A stretch of DNA of 23,142 nt. Origin: a virus. The stretch covers positions 1-23,142 of the IMG/VR virus record IMGVR_UViG_3300032893_000277, one strand, 5' to 3'. Positions 3,216 to 18,764 of this stretch are shown one piece after another. The translations under genes were made by a program, and so were the position numbers. The notes below the pieces were generated by a model. That model saw only the letters and a program-made list of their open reading frames with translations. It was not told the origin of the DNA and did no database searches. The first letter of the stretch is position 1; each line of letters starts with the position of its first letter.

Positions 3216-3376
3216 TTCAAACTAAACTGATAACCGATACAAATAGCGCGGATCTTGAAAATAATTTAAACTTATTTATTGCTTCTAAAATAACAGCAAA
3301 TGAACAACTTATAGATATAAAATTTACAGAGTCGAAAACTAACTGGTCAGCTTTAATAATTTATAAGGACAAATAA
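3212..3376 (+). CDS. small hypothetical protein, 54 aa
   Basis: ATG overlaps the upstream stop (ATGA), with a GGAGG site just inside the upstream gene. The sequence begins MIQTKLITDTNSADLENNLN and ends NWSALIIYKDK, a short alpha/beta pattern. Small proteins with the same I-x-D...LE..LN.F...W..LI.Y pattern occur widely in bacteria and phages, and none that I recall has a firm function. It joins directly to the next gene: the stop ends at 3376 and the next ATG is at 3377. Confidence 0.6.
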   Translation: MIQTKLITDTNSADLENNLNLFIASKITANEQLIDIKFTESKTNWSALIIYKDK

Positions 3377-3665: not shown

Positions 3666-3932
3666 ATGCCTAAAGTTAACTCCGACCTTCAAATCACAAA
3701 AGAAGATTGGAAATGTTTACATCTTTTATCAAAAAAAGAAAACATTGAAATACCCGTTTTATTAGGAAAAATGGTCGCCATTTGTCTAAGTCATTATGAG
3801 GACATTCTTTGGTCTAAAAGAACGGATAAACTTTTACATTATGTTGATTCTTTGGAAGGAATACCCTACGAGGAGTTTTGCAAAGAATTAGGGGTAAAGG
3901 CTGAGATTAAGAAAGACAAAGAGGGTAAATAA
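3666..3932 (+). CDS. hypothetical soluble protein, 88 aa
   Basis: Alpha-helical, soluble, of mixed charge. The middle (ENIEIPVLLGKMVAICLSHY) and the end (EGIPYEEFCKELGVKAEIKK) have the heptad-like character of small DNA-binding or antitoxin-like proteins, but I see no clear ribbon-helix-helix or helix-turn-helix signature. It starts 7 nt after the previous stop and is the only clearly soluble product among the membrane peptides of this stretch. Confidence 0.6.
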   Translation: MPKVNSDLQITKEDWKCLHLLSKKENIEIPVLLGKMVAICLSHYEDILWSKRTDKLLHYVDSLEGIPYEEFCKELGVKAEIKKDKEGK

Positions 3933-4351: not shown

Positions 4352-5826
4352 TCTAATCCCAACTCATTATAAAGTTCAGGATCATCTTTTTTAAGAATCT
4401 TTTGTGCAGCTACCATAAGTTTTCTTTGTTGCTCCGTATCTCCATGAAGTGTTGCTTGCACTAATTTTTTATGAATACCCTGTAACTTTGGATTTGTAAG
4501 CATTGCTGTGGAAAATCTTTGAACGCCTTCTTTAATTAAAGCATATTTAGCGGCTGTAGCAGGGTTCATTCCAGTTATTAATTTTAAACCCAAACCAAAG
4601 GCAATATTACCCGTTGGAACTGGAATTCCTTTTACGTTTACAAAAGCTTGTTTTTTGTCTAAAATATTCTCAAATTTTTTATATTGTGCATAGGCTTTAT
4701 CGGTTGCTCTCAGTTCTTTGGCTATATTCGGATTTATCTTTTCAATTGACTTCATGAAAGCGTCTTTGGCTTTACCCAGCATTGCGCCTTTAGGATCAAC
4801 AGCATTCCAGTTAACTTGTTGCCCGACGTTTTGACGAGATGCAATCAAATGCTCTAAAGTTGCTCCTTCATGTTCTAATTTAAATATAGCCTCTTCTATA
4901 GATTTCAATGCAGCTTTAGTATCTGGACCTTCGATTAAAGTCTTCCCTATATTGTCTCTCAAAGCATTTAAATCATCAATTAAAGGCATTACTTGCTTAG
5001 AGCTTAAATATCCACCCTGGCGGCCTATTTGCTTCAATTCTTCATATTTAGAACCAAGCTTTTCTTTCAATCCTTCAACGTCTCTCTGAAATTGCTTCGT
5101 CTTTTTTGAAGCCCTGCCTAATAAGCCAACCTTTTTCTCTGACTGTAATAAAATTGTTGCTTCTCTAGGAGTTAACCCATTCTGCTGTGCCCAATTGACA
5201 ATTCCTTGTTTTTCTGGACTTCCTTTAGTGGCTTTAGTTAGTGAATCCCATCCAGCTTTAGTCTTTGCGGCAGCTCGTTCCGCAGAAAGTGCCGCTCTGC
5301 CTTCAGCCGAAAATAGTTTAGGTATCTTTTGAACATTTCTTATAGCCTTGCTAGGACTAATCAGACTTGCCCCAATGTTGGTTATTTCTTCTCCAAGGTC
5401 TTCGGGCTCTAAGTCGATTCCTGTTGAAGCTTTTACTGCTTTGTTGATTAATCCTTCAGTGCTGATATCGGCAGCTTTTTCGCTCTTTCTTTCGGCCAAT
5501 TGTTTGGTTCTGTCATAGTGAATTTTTTCAAGACGTGTAAGTGGCTCGCCTCTTGCAACCTTATCGTTCATTCTTTGAAGATCTTTTTGAGCTTGCGCGG
5601 ATACACGAGTTCGTGATCTGTGAGCCCCCTCCCTAACTAAAGTAGTTGCGAGATTATAAGCTGCAACTCCTGGAATTAGATTAAGAGCTCCTTTCCCTGC
5701 TTGCGCAGCATAACGAGCGGGTTTACGCAAAGGACTAGTAGATTGATCCAAAAATGAAAGAGGATCGGACGTGCTTTCTGTTTCTGCGGAGGGCTCATCT
5801 AAAAAAGCCAATGGATCTACTGACAT
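4348..5826 (-). CDS. probable internal virion (ejection) protein, 492 aa
   Basis: Last and largest of three adjacent minus-strand genes. The N-terminus has two copies of a short motif, DPLAFLDEP at residues 4-12 and DPLSFLDQS at 21-29. Then come an Ala/Gly-rich segment (GKGALNLIPGVAAYNLA), long Lys/Glu-rich helices (residues ~80-390) and a second hydrophobic Gly-rich stretch near residues 405-425 (TGNIAFGLGLKLITGMNPAT). Large helical proteins behind two smaller Gly/Ala-rich ones match the podovirus set of internal proteins ejected into the cell envelope (as in P22 or T7), known for those families and inferred here. The repeated DPLxFLD motif could bind the portal or capsid interior. Confidence 0.65.
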   Translation of the reverse strand: MSVDPLAFLDEPSAETESTSDPLSFLDQSTSPLRKPARYAAQAGKGALNLIPGVAAYNLATTLVREGAHRSRTRVSAQAQKDLQRMNDKVARGEPLTRLEKIHYDRTKQLAERKSEKAADISTEGLINKAVKASTGIDLEPEDLGEEITNIGASLISPSKAIRNVQKIPKLFSAEGRAALSAERAAAKTKAGWDSLTKATKGSPEKQGIVNWAQQNGLTPREATILLQSEKKVGLLGRASKKTKQFQRDVEGLKEKLGSKYEELKQIGRQGGYLSSKQVMPLIDDLNALRDNIGKTLIEGPDTKAALKSIEEAIFKLEHEGATLEHLIASRQNVGQQVNWNAVDPKGAMLGKAKDAFMKSIEKINPNIAKELRATDKAYAQYKKFENILDKKQAFVNVKGIPVPTGNIAFGLGLKLITGMNPATAAKYALIKEGVQRFSTAMLTNPKLQGIHKKLVQATLHGDTEQQRKLMVAAQKILKKDDPELYNELGLD

Positions 5827-6512
5827 TAAAATTCAAACTCCCTTTCTAATTCTTTGCGAACTTTGGCTTTATCTTTATAAGTTTTATAGAGTTGGGTGGC
5901 TTTAGCCTTGTGTTCTGGATGTTGTGGATTGAATTTGGTTTTTGCTGCTTTTTTGGTAGTTTTTTCTTGATGAGAGCCGGACTCATCTTCCATCATTGAT
6001 CTCTCAAATAAACCTTGAAGACCATTTAAAGCCCCTTCCAAGTCATCTTGGCGAGAGTTTGGGTTGGTGATTGTTTTTCTATATTCCTCAAACTCTTTTT
6101 GGTTTCTAATGGGAACGCCAGCAGCAACTAAAGGTATCAATGATCGTCCTAATGTCTCAAGTTCGGCTCTATTTTTTCTAGTTTCACCGCCCAAAAGGGA
6201 AGAAAGATAGTTTGAAGGTCCAGCACTAGGAATTAAAGACCTCATTTTGTCAATAGTTTCCAAGCCAACGTTTAAAGCATGTTCTTTTTCAACTCTTTTT
6301 TGCATTTTTCCTGTGAATTGCGCCTTAAGATATTCTCTTCTTAATTCGGGACTTAATGCCGCTATTTCTGGCCCGAATTGTTTTGAAATAGCTTTCGTTT
6401 CTGCAATATCACCCAAAACTTGAGGAAGTTGTTGGCCTGCTTGTTGTATACCTCCGAGCAATTGATCGGCAAACTTACGTTTTTTCGGTGCCTCATCTAT
6501 TATTTGTAGCAT
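5826..6512 (-). CDS. probable internal virion protein, 228 aa
   Basis: Middle gene of the ejection-type trio. The stop of this gene and the start of the next overlap (TAATG), and it starts 9 nt after the upstream gene with a GAGGTAA site. The product is helical and soluble. It has a Gln/Gly-rich N-terminus (LLGGIQQAGQQLPQVLGDIA), a central segment with LETLGRSLIPLVAAGVPIRN and a very basic C-terminus full of Lys and Ala. A Lys-rich tail suits DNA contact inside the head. I do not recognise a named family. Confidence 0.6.
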   Translation of the reverse strand: MLQIIDEAPKKRKFADQLLGGIQQAGQQLPQVLGDIAETKAISKQFGPEIAALSPELRREYLKAQFTGKMQKRVEKEHALNVGLETIDKMRSLIPSAGPSNYLSSLLGGETRKNRAELETLGRSLIPLVAAGVPIRNQKEFEEYRKTITNPNSRQDDLEGALNGLQGLFERSMMEDESGSHQEKTTKKAAKTKFNPQHPEHKAKATQLYKTYKDKAKVRKELEREFEF

Positions 6513-7178: not shown

Positions 7179-7206
7179 TTGATCGATTTAATTAGGTGTG
7201 TATAAT
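7179..7206 (+). promoter_or_regulatory. sigma70-type promoter driving the repeat island
   Basis: A -35 like TTGATC (7179-7184) and a perfect -10 TATAAT (7201-7206) are separated by 16 nt. Transcription would start near 7213, only a few bases before the first repeat unit at 7217. The arrays are therefore probably transcribed from their very first base as the 5' leader of the gene pair at 7523-8622. Confidence 0.65.
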
Positions 7207-7216
7207 ACTTACCGCT

Positions 7217-7301
7217 ATCTGAAGTGATGTGAGTAGATATGTCATGAAATGAAGCGTATCGATCTGAAGAGAGTCGACGTGATGTGACCAGAATTGAACT
7301 G
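7217..7301 (+). repeat. pentanucleotide array block 1 (17 units)
   Basis: Seventeen consecutive 5-nt units in exact phase. By hand count, over all six blocks (86 units) the first base is A in 82, the fifth is G in 77 and the fourth is T in 54. Bases 2 and 3 vary freely. Examples here are ATCTG, AAGTG, ATGTG and ACGTG. The block starts with ATCTG, ends with AACTG and is followed by TTTTTG. The sequence is not a simple microsatellite, because neighbouring units differ. TGA occurs in every frame, so it is not coding. Confidence 0.9.
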
Positions 7302-7328
7302 TTTTTGTTTTAAGGGGTTAAAGTTTTT

Positions 7329-7393
7329 AACTGATTAGAGTCCAAATGAGATGACTCGATGTGAACCGAATTCAGTAGAGGTGAGCTGACTTG
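7329..7393 (+). repeat. pentanucleotide array block 2 (13 units)
   Basis: Thirteen units in exact 5-nt phase, from AACTG to ACTTG. Examples are AAATG, AGATG, ATGTG and AGGTG. It is separated from block 1 by a 27-nt linker made of a T run, GGGG and an A/T stretch. Three units lack one of the fixed bases at the end (AGTCC, AATTC) or in the fourth place, but the phase is kept. Confidence 0.9.
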
Positions 7394-7427
7394 CTTATAA
7401 TAACAAGGGACAAAGAATTTTTAAAAT

Positions 7428-7497
7428 CGCTGAATTGATTCGATCTGATTTCAGACGAATTGACCACAAGTGAGCTGATTAGAAATGAATTGAAATG
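7428..7497 (+). repeat. pentanucleotide array block 3 (14 units)
   Basis: Fourteen units from CGCTG to AAATG, followed by a run of nine T and then the ribosome binding site of the next gene. A 34-nt linker with GGG and a T run separates it from block 2. Its last units (ATTAG, AAATG, AATTG, AAATG) resemble the end of block 6. Confidence 0.9.
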
Positions 7498-7522
7498 TTT
7501 TTTTTAAACAAAAGGATGATAA

Positions 7523-8167
7523 ATGTTAGCATTAGACAAAGTATACGTTAAAATTAAGGGTGTAACGCCGATGATCATACAAAACGGTCGTTGCGCTAAC
7601 CCTTTAGATCCATACGCTAAACGTATGAAATCTTTGACTTCCAAGAAAAACAAGACCGAAGATGACCTTTATCTCATCTTAGAAACCCAATGGGAAGCGT
7701 CCCTCTATTGGAATGATAAAATCGGCCTTTATATGCCATCCGAAAATATGAACGCGGCCTTCTATAAGGGGGCTAAGAAACACAAGCTTGGCAATAAATG
7801 CTCTGGCGTTATCTTTCCCGATCCTGTCGGATATCCCATTATTACCGACTTTCATAATGACATTGAACAGTTCCGACAAGACAAGAAAAATCGTTTCATT
7901 AAACCCGTTGTAGTTCAAAGGGCAAAAACGATCTCCTGCCGTCCCATATTCAATAACTGGAGTTTAAACTTTGATCTTGAGTTTGAGCGTGAGGTATGGG
8001 ATGTTAACGAAATAAAAACTATCTTACAAACAATGTCAAACCGTATCGGTTTGGGCGTTTGGACTCCAGGAAGCCCTAAGCCTGGGATACATGGTAAATT
8101 CATTATAGACTCAATTGTCTACGAAGATGGTAAGACAGGAGACAAAAAAGAAATTAGAGGTATGTAA
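7523..8167 (+). CDS. phage protein with RAMP-like glycine-rich loop, 214 aa, enclosed by the arrays
   Basis: AAAGGATGATAA precedes the ATG. The N-terminus is a beta strand pattern (KVYVKIKGVTPMIIQNGR), then a charged helix region. PSENMNAAFYKGAKK follows near residues 72-86. FIKPVVVQRAKTISCRPIF lies near 125-143, and SNRIGLGVWTPGSPKPGIHG at 172-191. Proteins with I-x-G-x-[ST]-P-M near the start and IGxGxWxP...GxxGxF near the end form a phage family I recognise only as uncharacterised. A beta-alpha-beta core with a glycine-rich loop recalls RAMP/Cas7-type RNA-binding folds; this is inference from pattern, not a proven homology. It overlaps the next gene (TAATG). As the product of the transcript carrying the arrays, it is the best candidate to bind them. 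Confidence 0.75.
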   Translation: MLALDKVYVKIKGVTPMIIQNGRCANPLDPYAKRMKSLTSKKNKTEDDLYLILETQWEASLYWNDKIGLYMPSENMNAAFYKGAKKHKLGNKCSGVIFPDPVGYPIITDFHNDIEQFRQDKKNRFIKPVVVQRAKTISCRPIFNNWSLNFDLEFEREVWDVNEIKTILQTMSNRIGLGVWTPGSPKPGIHGKFIIDSIVYEDGKTGDKKEIRGM

Positions 8168-8622
8168 TGTCTAAATCTTTAATTGAAACAATCGATAATA
8201 ATCCCATTGCAGTAGGAGCGTTTGAATACCTCTGGAAACAGGGTCTAATATACCCAGGAGCCATAATACCTGGCGAGGCCGTTGAGAAGGCTCTAGGTAT
8301 GGCGTATGAAGATAGCTGGGCGTTTCTAGGTAAATACATGGCTCTGCAAGTAAAGCTAAAGTCTGAGGGCTACTTTATAAACCAAAAGAAATTAACCCCA
8401 CCAAGTTTTAGGATCGCTAAGACCGAGGATATGGCTGAGATAGGGACTAAAAGAATCATGGAGGCGGTTTCGCATAACTACGAAACAGCTTACATCATGG
8501 CCGCTCACGACGTGTCAAAACTAAGCGATGAACAGCAAAAGAAGCATAGAAAAGTACAACAAAAGGCCGCGCAATCGGCTATAATGCAACAAAAAGTGTT
8601 GCTGGATGTCAGTTTTTTTTAA
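8167..8622 (+). CDS. hypothetical partner protein of the array operon, 151 aa
   Basis: Its ATG overlaps the stop of the upstream gene (TAATG), so the two are translated together. The protein is mostly alpha-helical. An N-terminal region (residues ~10-50: NPIAVGAFEYLWKQGLIYPG, then VEKALGMAYEDSWAFLGKYM) has the look of a winged-helix or replication-initiation-like domain. GYFINQKKLTPPSFRIAKTE follows (residues ~68-87), and a Gln/Lys-rich helical tail ends in VLLDVSFF. The C-terminal LDVSFF could be a peptide that docks on another protein, such as a clamp, which is speculative. The stop codon lies 2 nt before array block 4. I do not recognise the family. Confidence 0.7.
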   Translation: MSKSLIETIDNNPIAVGAFEYLWKQGLIYPGAIIPGEAVEKALGMAYEDSWAFLGKYMALQVKLKSEGYFINQKKLTPPSFRIAKTEDMAEIGTKRIMEAVSHNYETAYIMAAHDVSKLSDEQQKKHRKVQQKAAQSAIMQQKVLLDVSFF

Positions 8623-8624
8623 CT

Positions 8625-8684
8625 ATCTGAGGTCAGTAGAGGTGAGTCGAACACAATAGAGCTTAAATGAAGAGAACGGAGCTG
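8625..8684 (+). repeat. pentanucleotide array block 4 (12 units)
   Basis: Twelve units from ATCTG to AGCTG, beginning 2 nt after the stop of the second gene. Examples are AGGTG, AGTCG, AAATG and AAGAG. It is followed by CTTTTT. It is the shortest and least regular block, with AACAC and AGCTT as weak units. Confidence 0.88.
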
Positions 8685-8692
8685 CTTTTTAG

Positions 8693-8772
8693 AGTTGAAT
8701 AGAGTAGAACCAAGTTGATACGACCTGAGAAGACCACAGATGAATAGAATTGATTTGAATAGAATTGAACTG
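8693..8772 (+). repeat. pentanucleotide array block 5 (16 units)
   Basis: Sixteen units from AGTTG to AACTG, then CTTTTCTTTTT and a G run. AATAG and AATTG recur several times towards the end. The linker to block 4 is only 8 nt (CTTTTTAG), much shorter than the other linkers. Confidence 0.9.
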
Positions 8773-8798
8773 CTTTTCTTTTTGGGGGTAGAATTTTA

Positions 8799-8868
8799 AT
8801 CTGAGATGAGATGAGGTGAGGTGACTCGAATTGTTTTGAGGTGAGGTGATTAGAAATGAATGGAACTG
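8799..8868 (+). repeat. pentanucleotide array block 6 (14 units)
   Basis: Fourteen units from ATCTG to AACTG. This is the most regular block, with AGATG twice in a row and AGGTG in two adjacent pairs. The end (ATTAG, AAATG, AATGG, AACTG, then CTTTT) resembles the end of block 3. The linker before it contains T runs, GGGGG and an A/T stretch. Confidence 0.92.
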
Positions 8869-8997: not shown

Positions 8998-9249
8998 ATG
9001 ATTAAGACCGTAGCGAAACGCCTTATCGTAAAAAAGATTGAGGAAGAAAAGAAAACCACGATTATTACAGTGACTAGCAATGAACCCTTTAAAGCTAGTG
9101 TAATCGCGCTAGGAAGCGACGTCGATGTTCAGGTTAGCGTTGGAGATGTAGTCATACTTCCTGCGCATACTGGAAGCAATCTGGAGATCGAAGGTGAGAA
9201 ATATCTCGCAGTCTACGAAGATCAGATTTTAGCGGTTATTGGAAAGTGA
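8998..9249 (+). CDS. GroES-like co-chaperonin, 83 aa
   Basis: A GCAGGAGAA ribosome binding site precedes the ATG. The C-terminal half is GroES-like: VSVGDVVILPAHTGSNLEIE at residues 47-66, then GEKYLAVYEDQILAVIGK (residues 66-83). Known GroES proteins end in the same way, with a VGDxVxF...G..v...G..YL...E.DILAVI pattern. The protein is shorter than bacterial GroES (~97 aa), mainly in the mobile-loop region, where KKTTIITVTSNEP replaces the usual Gly-rich loop. Phage GroES analogues such as T4 gp31 help the host GroEL fold the capsid protein. That role is likely but inferred. A weak TATACT lies upstream at 8929-8934. Confidence 0.75.
   Translation: MIKTVAKRLIVKKIEEEKKTTIITVTSNEPFKASVIALGSDVDVQVSVGDVVILPAHTGSNLEIEGEKYLAVYEDQILAVIGK
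9193..9249 (+). repeat. GroES 3' end, first copy of a 57-bp duplication
   Basis: The last 18 codons and stop of the GroES-like gene. A diverged second copy lies at 9468-9524. Both encode GEKYLAVYED, then a variable residue, then ILA.IGK. Differences are mainly at third codon positions. Confidence 0.85.
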
Positions 9250-9528: not shown

Positions 9529-9610
9529 GGGAGAATACTCAAGTAGCAACGAGGATGGGCTGTAAACTCATTGGCTTTTGCCTTCGTAGGTGCAATTCCT
9601 TCTTCTCCCA
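9529..9610 (+). tRNA. tRNA-Tyr (anticodon GUA)
   Basis: The acceptor arm GGGAGAA (9529-9535) pairs fully with TTCTCCC (9603-9609), with A as the discriminator base. The anticodon loop CTGTAAA sits between ATGGG and CTCAT. A long variable arm (TGGCTTTTGCC) makes it a class II tRNA, as bacterial tRNA-Tyr is. The T arm contains TGCAATT. CCA is not encoded. Two bases separate it from tRNA-Thr. Confidence 0.88.
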
Positions 9611-9612
9611 TC

Positions 9613-9685
9613 GCTGGCATAGCTCAGTTGGTAGAGCGTTCGCCTTGTAAGCGAAAGTGCGTGAGTTCAAATCTTACTGCCAGCA
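9613..9685 (+). tRNA. tRNA-Thr (anticodon UGU)
   Basis: The acceptor arm GCTGGCA (9613-9619) pairs fully with TGCCAGC (9678-9684). The D arm is GCTCAGTTGGTAGAGC. The anticodon loop CTTGTAA lies between TTCGC and GCGAA. The T arm is GTGAG-TTCAAAT-CTTAC. CCA is not encoded. It ends 1 nt before the stop of a convergent tail gene. Confidence 0.93.
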
Positions 9686-17976: not shown

Positions 17977-18764
17977 CACGCTGTTACTTTTGTGACCTCA
18001 GATGAGGCGGGAAGGCTCTTCGGCACTTCCTCAAGAGTTTTATATATAGCTCTTGTTCAGACTATCGCATCCCATTTAAGGGTCTAACCACTTAGTCGTT
18101 CAGCCTGGATTAAATATGACTTCATGTGTATACTAATTGGTGTAAACATGGAGAATATATGCCTAAATTTAACAATATTGACCATAAACACCGATTTCAA
18201 TACGTCCCTAAACACCACGATCCACTTCATCTTGCATATCTTGCTGGAATTATAGACGGCGAGGGCTGCTTTCATGCGTGTAAGCTGAAAAACAAACCAG
18301 GCGATGGTTATAAAAACGGTCATTATCGTTGTGTTCTTAAAGTCAGCAATACGGACAAGCGCCTTTTTGAATGGCTTCAAGAGACATTTCGAGGCACATG
18401 TTCTGCTGCATTTAAAGAAACACGCGATAAGCTTTTTAAGCGCGATTGCTATGAATGGGTTGTAACTGGACACAGACTTTTGGACATTTGTCGCCAAGTC
18501 TTGCCATATTTGATTATTAAGAAACGACATTGTGAACTTATCATTAAATTTCGCGAATCCTTCCCCATGAATTTGGGGCGTGGTAGTCGAGAGATTACCG
18601 CTGACGAGCAAATCTTGCGTGAAGATTGTATCGCCGAAATCAAGAAACTTAATGCCAGAGTTCGTTCTATTCCACATTGCAAGGTCATCTAATCCTTGGC
18701 CCTTGTTGTCCTTTTTGAGGAGTTCCAAGTCAATCAGGTCAGATTTATCGAGGACATTATCTCT
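17977..18764 (-). ncRNA. group I intron 2 in the capsid gene (788 nt)
   Basis: P1 is visible: exon GAGGAU (ending at 18765) pairs with intron GUCCUC (positions 18755-18750), with the required U-G wobble at the splice site. The loop carries GATAA, which can pair with exon 3 UUAUC (P10). P7 is GACTA (18097-18093) with TAGTC (18064-18060). The intron ends in G at 17977. Without the inserted endonuclease it would be about 220-250 nt. Its start and P7 region resemble intron 1 closely (both contain TGATTGACTTGGAA and the same 33-nt P7 spacing), so the two are related. It is self-splicing in principle. Confidence 0.8.
18159..18692 (+). CDS. LAGLIDADG homing endonuclease inside intron 2, antisense to the capsid gene, 177 aa
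   Basis: The start at 18159 is chosen for TGGAGAA at 18149-18155. A GTG at 18126 would add 11 residues. Residues 25-38, LAYLAGIIDGEGCF, are the LAGLIDADG helix with acidic D33 and E35 as metal-binding catalytic residues. Only one copy of the motif is present, so the enzyme should work as a homodimer. Then follow beta strands (CVLKVSNTDKRLFEWLQETF) and the basic HRLLDICRQVLPYLIIKKRH segment seen in this family. Its role is to cut intronless capsid genes and spread the intron. The strand is opposite to the intron and capsid gene, so it must be expressed from its own promoter. Confidence 0.9.
   Translation: MPKFNNIDHKHRFQYVPKHHDPLHLAYLAGIIDGEGCFHACKLKNKPGDGYKNGHYRCVLKVSNTDKRLFEWLQETFRGTCSAAFKETRDKLFKRDCYEWVVTGHRLLDICRQVLPYLIIKKRHCELIIKFRESFPMNLGRGSREITADEQILREDCIAEIKKLNARVRSIPHCKVI

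Follow-up and report, generated by a model that had tools for sequence, protein, structure and literature searches.

We identified, at positions 7220-8866 of a 23,142-base virus record of the IMG/VR type (analysed over its full length and referred to below as the window), a locus that is very probably a phage-encoded VIPR system, in which arrays of short units would act as guide RNAs, coated by the protein Vipr, that silence the genes of competitors. VIPR systems are described in a 2026 preprint that is not peer-reviewed (PMC13142463), which defines them by a phage-encoded RAMP protein (Vipr), a vap gene and vrRNA guides of alternating GGY/NN, whose NN positions base-pair with double-stranded DNA, skipping one base and silencing competing phages and satellites. 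What can be seen directly in the window is a protein homologous to Vipr, an accessory gene coupled to it and six phased, TGA-like arrays with free dinucleotides. These form a plus-strand island, in which three arrays precede and three follow a pair of overlapping genes (214 and 151 amino acids), with blocks of structural genes on the minus strand to both sides; the published VIPR layout likewise places arrays in the non-coding DNA around a gene pair.

All six arrays are on the plus strand. Upstream of the gene pair lie w1 (7220-7299; 16 TGA/NN units, tail beginning TGTTTTTG), w2 (7332-7391; 12 units, tail beginning TGCTTA) and w3 (7431-7495; 13 units, tail beginning TGTTTTTT), and downstream of it w4 (8628-8682; 11 units, tail beginning TGCTTTT and continuing directly, in a staggered arrangement, into the next array), w5 (8691-8770; 16 units, tail beginning TGCTTTTC) and w6 (8802-8866; 13 units, tail beginning TGCTTTTA). 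Blocks of 11-16 units with hypervariable NN are what is expected of VIPR arrays. The common frame is T-G-A-N-N: over the 81 complete units, the second position is G in 72 (1.39 bit) and the third is A in 78 (1.77 bit), while the first is divided between T (48), A (19), C (12) and G (2) and carries 0.52 bit, and the fourth and fifth are nearly free (0.15 and 0.09 bit). For the dinucleotide GA, the highest score of a phased run was 12, whereas 2000 Markov simulations of the array region never exceeded 7 and 100 of the whole window never exceeded 5; six segments of the window exceeded the threshold, compared with at most two in simulations, and GA at other periods (3-12) scored no higher than 7.

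The first-pass annotation had reported six blocks with a 5-nucleotide phase around a single gene pair, all on one strand, an arrangement that these simulations place far beyond chance. Its count of 86 units is correct as to the six blocks but includes partial end units, and the exact phase that it described is kept inside each block, not across all of them: there is no global phase, and w4 and w5 abut out of phase. The units are diverse, as it had also noted, with 40 of the 81 distinct and only 3 identical neighbours, and its proposal that the phase is selected and the content free agrees both with the low information of the NN positions and with relatives that keep the phase while the variable bases change.

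A scan of the whole window found no comparable arrays elsewhere, and we found no long open frame on either strand in either array flank, for which reason we regard the arrays as non-coding. The region's best sigma-70-like promoter, TTGATC-16-TATAAT (7179-7206, plus strand; 10/12 consensus matches), ends 13 bases ahead of the first unit of w1; since the promoter scan returned 10 sites where 5.2 were expected, its role as a start for the arrays is only suggestive.

Several other features were recorded around the locus. A phage-encoded GroES-like co-chaperonin (8998-9249, plus strand) lies directly downstream of w6, and tRNA genes for Tyr(gta) and Thr(tgt) (9529-9685, plus strand) lie nearby. Further away, in the minus-strand head-gene region, a LAGLIDADG endonuclease frame (18126-18692, plus strand) apparently interrupts the gene for the major head protein. 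The tail proteins and the head protein of the window gave no match to named phages, and a search of the window and five related loci for Rfam families, including the hammerhead, returned tRNAs only.

The first gene of the pair, vipr (7523-8167, plus strand), encodes the 214-residue RAMP (Cas7-like) protein, which matches phrog_4652 (1.1e-37) and the solved Vipr chain of phage SUSP1 (PDB 36pp; phmmer E=1e-25 over residues 8-183, profile 5.7e-33). Prediction from the single sequence was unusable (pLDDT 39), so we used an AlphaFold2 model built on an alignment with 12 relatives (pLDDT 90). The best Foldseek matches of this model in the PDB are RAMP subunits of the Csm3/Cmr4 type (probability 1.00, TM about 0.4-0.5), and the protein is thus predicted to have the CRISPR RAMP/Cas7 fold; the 36pp match and the Csm3/Cmr4 fold together identify it as the RAMP homologue expected of a VIPR locus. 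It also fits the earlier idea of an RNA-binding protein with one subunit per 5-nucleotide unit. A search of genome_contigs with the Vipr profile returned no match.

The second gene, vap (8167-8622, plus strand), encodes the 151-residue accessory protein; its start and the vipr stop have one base in common. The protein is 35% identical to the product of the gene in the same position of a related locus, L112, and the position of the gene itself matches that in Felix-type phages, LESphi2, LittleE and L112. Profile comparison with vap of GGY-type phages was weak (hhalign E=6e-4, probability 28%). The window thus holds the minimal VIPR locus, vipr and vap with long flanking non-coding DNA. Compared with VIPR type II (Escherichia phage SUSP1 and a P. 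fulva prophage; PMC13142463; 36pp), the likeness lies in a phage-encoded RAMP of ~20-25 kDa, an adjacent vap and, on both sides of the gene pair, arrays that have free NN and count 9-16 five-base units. The window differs in using TGA (HGA) instead of GGY, in having six guides, two of them abutting, in its U-rich tails in place of a demonstrated pseudoknot, and in the weak similarity of its vap.

To look at the arrays independently of the protein, we scanned viral contigs for eight HGANN units and obtained 120 stretches. Many of these are simple purine repeats, and a subset shows multiple blocks whose units are diverse and whose ends are conserved. A reading of the window's arrays as a functionless purine-rich repeat or a neutral, degenerate satellite has in its favour the many scan loci of simple purine repeats that lack a Vipr gene. 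Against such an origin, adjacent units are unlike one another, the phase persists although 40 of 81 units are distinct, and there is a link between diverse arrays and Vipr genes: the profile of the 214-residue family found homologues at 10 of 16 diverse-array loci and at 1 of the remaining 104 (Fisher p=7e-10, for counts that are not fully independent, L033 and L105 being near-copies and L017 lying on the same contig as L112). We therefore consider a functionless repeat highly improbable and retain the reading of the arrays as VIPR guides.

Seven named phages, picked by the similarity of their proteins to the 214-residue protein, all carry a 5-nucleotide periodic stretch beside the homologue (Medea1, allfine, LESphi2, LittleE, phiHSIC, Vibrio 1.266.O and Trine; log10 p -6.9 to -15.0), with strong periodicity in six and weaker periodicity in Medea1. 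SUSP1, the phage of PMC13142463, is among the homologue matches, and homologues in many metagenomic viruses also adjoin 5-nucleotide arrays. The arrays had been assigned to the gene pair in the first-pass annotation, which proposed related genomes as the place to look; there the phase is indeed kept beside homologues of these genes, with the variable bases changed.

Other observations concern individual relatives. L112 and L017 belong to one contig, IMGVR_UViG_3300047175_000261, which represents a relative phage with two separate array loci, the second of which also adjoins a tRNA (L017:1307-1379). One guide from each locus (L112:9407-9483 and L017:5810-5886, in reverse-complement coordinates) has ten consecutive dinucleotides in common, GG AA GA CC TA GA TA TT AC AT, with differing flanks, and from their sequences the two look as if they were aimed at one conserved site. 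In L019, L088 and L120 the arrays are on the strand opposite to vipr and hence cannot share its transcript. L181, from another virus (reverse-complement coordinates), has a Vipr gene at 5706-6320 and at least nine short DGANN arrays at 7520-8374, with T, A or G as the first base, which at the sequence level is an intermediate consensus. In Listonella phage phiHSIC, the annotated ORF21 (L128:3099-3380) runs antisense over arrays of GCANN guides; it is probably not a genuine gene.

The binding sites of TRAP combine a constant triplet with a two-base spacer and thus also have a 5-nucleotide period, a likeness to which the first-pass annotation pointed. In a TRAP-like complex, an oligomeric ring on the arrays would control transcription or translation of both genes. 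The chance of this is very slight. The protein is a RAMP and not TRAP, as its sequence and profile matches to Vipr and its modelled fold indicate; blocks range from 5 to 34 units over the relatives, leaving no fixed ring size; and the arrays may precede or follow the genes, run along the other strand (L019, L088 and L120) or occupy a second site (L017). The two systems differ further in the identity of the triplet, and the window offers no trp context. Nor is the system as such new, as had been thought possible, since the locus belongs to the VIPR family (PMC13142463).

The RAMPs of class 1 CRISPR systems (Csm3/Cmr4, Cas7 family) resemble the 214-residue protein in fold, and their subunits are likewise thought to repeat along an RNA guide. 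The window differs from them in its 5-nucleotide period, as opposed to 6, in its single small RAMP and in lacking a contiguous spacer. We rejected a class 1 CRISPR-Cas system as an identity for the locus: only two genes lie between the arrays, the window proteins scanned include no cas or CRISPR family, and the window showed neither CRISPR repeats and spacers nor further cas genes.

Because its triplet is TGA (HGA) and not exactly GGY, we file the locus as a VIPR variant. PMC13142463 gives GGY/NN 'or a related consensus' for all VIPR types and refers to its supplement for details; on account of this wording TGA may be among the triplets already listed there. Across the loci that we compared, Felix-type phages, LESphi2, LittleE, Trine and L002 use GGC or GGT; phiHSIC and the Vibrio phage use GCA; GAC occurs in L033, L075, L089 and L114, and also in L019, L088 and L120, whose arrays oppose vipr; and the window shares TGA with L112. 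We placed these triplet classes on a maximum-likelihood tree of 22 Vipr proteins, in which the window and L112 form one supported pair and several deep forks are weak. The classes require 6 changes, where shuffling gave a mean of 10.3 and none of 200 shuffles came as low, from which we conclude that the triplet follows the Vipr protein. We tentatively propose, as a possibility that we rate at somewhat below even, that the triplet (GGY, GCA, GAC or TGA) is a clade-specific identity tag co-evolving with Vipr, such that a TGA-type Vipr would take TGA-type guides only and be orthogonal to GGY systems, and that the half-variable first base of the TGA clade may extend the code beyond NN.

VIPR guides are expected to carry a structured 3' tail behind their repeats. 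In L112, L017 and L253, every array closes with a conserved tail (AGTGCC...) that contains two hairpins. Over the seven tails of these loci, 97% of cells are paired and 12 cells are changed on both sides; the covariation score is 0.52, compared with 0.21 in shuffles and at most 0.08 with the partner slid, and none of 500 shuffles reached the real tails on either pairing or covariation. The covariation supports a function at the RNA level in this clade. The tails of the window are short and U-rich, start with TG[CT]TT and form individually weak hairpins, and a search for a common fold among its own six tails gave no convincing shared hairpin. Tails aside, in the actinophages Trine and LittleE, tRNA-like minihelices with an acceptor-like stem and a T arm (GGTTCGANTCC) lie between GGCNN arrays (L130:3192-3242 and 3299-3349; L127:2385-2432, 3703-3755 and 3836-3898). 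They fold as such in most copies, with a stability not above that of shuffles, and suggest that guides are processed by tRNA maturation enzymes.

On the model of PMC13142463, from which we infer vrRNA transcription, Vipr coating, skipped pairing and silencing for the window, the arrays would be transcribed as six separate guide RNAs (vrRNAs, which in VIPR systems measure ~100 nt), each coated by Vipr subunits at one per 5-nucleotide unit. Vipr would hold the constant triplet and leave the dinucleotide exposed, and the dinucleotides would pair with double-stranded DNA, one target base being skipped between pairs (NNxNNxNN). The bound filament, with the help of vap, would then silence genes of competing phages, satellites or prophages. 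The rule of a one-nucleotide skip is inherited from that preprint, and its application to TGA arrays is presumptive.

We searched for targets on this rule, using exact-match NNxNNxNN scans, which are insensitive, for guides of the window and of the relative phage. Reading with a one-nucleotide skip, viral_contigs gave no match to the first 9 NN of w1 or to the core common to the two guides of the relative phage, and genome_contigs gave none to 10 NN of w2. Seeds of 8 NN from w5 and w2 had 3 and 5 matches in viral_contigs, in unrelated genes and with extension not beyond chance. When all TGA-type guides were read with skips of 0-3 against ~2.4 Mb of fetched loci, matches were within or barely above shuffled controls, except for the best seeded match, L138 against w2 (21/24), which was selected by its seed. 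A contiguous reading of the concatenated NN was also tried against the window and the fetched loci and discarded, having given nothing above chance.

That guide searches found no target above chance is what one would expect if the Vipr-array complex of the TGA clade were real but the arrays served as an RNA scaffold, a decoy or an autoregulatory site, and the partly variable first base (0.52 bit), which blurs the split between triplet and NN, points the same way. Such a role would leave unexplained the retention of the phase alongside near-random NN; the six arrays, which differ in content, and the further arrays at two loci of the relative fit distinct guides, and the ten-dinucleotide core between different flanks in the relative's two guides is expected if content matters. 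We judge a role of this kind to be improbable. Likewise, an RNA guide is a likelier purpose than those suggested earlier (protein sink, packaging, annealing or translation control), since the information of VIPR guides resides in their free dinucleotides. On the guide reading, the kit of the window probably silences the DNA of rival viruses.

VIPR is a newly described, discontinuous-guide way of reading DNA that has been proposed to be older than CRISPR. The fixed triplet, held to be the signature of its guides, varies by clade along the Vipr phylogeny, and motif searches restricted to GGY would miss arrays such as w1-w6, which can be found by their 5-nucleotide phase alone, without a protein query. 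Natural pairs of Vipr and triplet offer a route to the Vipr residues that read the triplet, and clade-specific triplets suggest guide systems that are mutually orthogonal.
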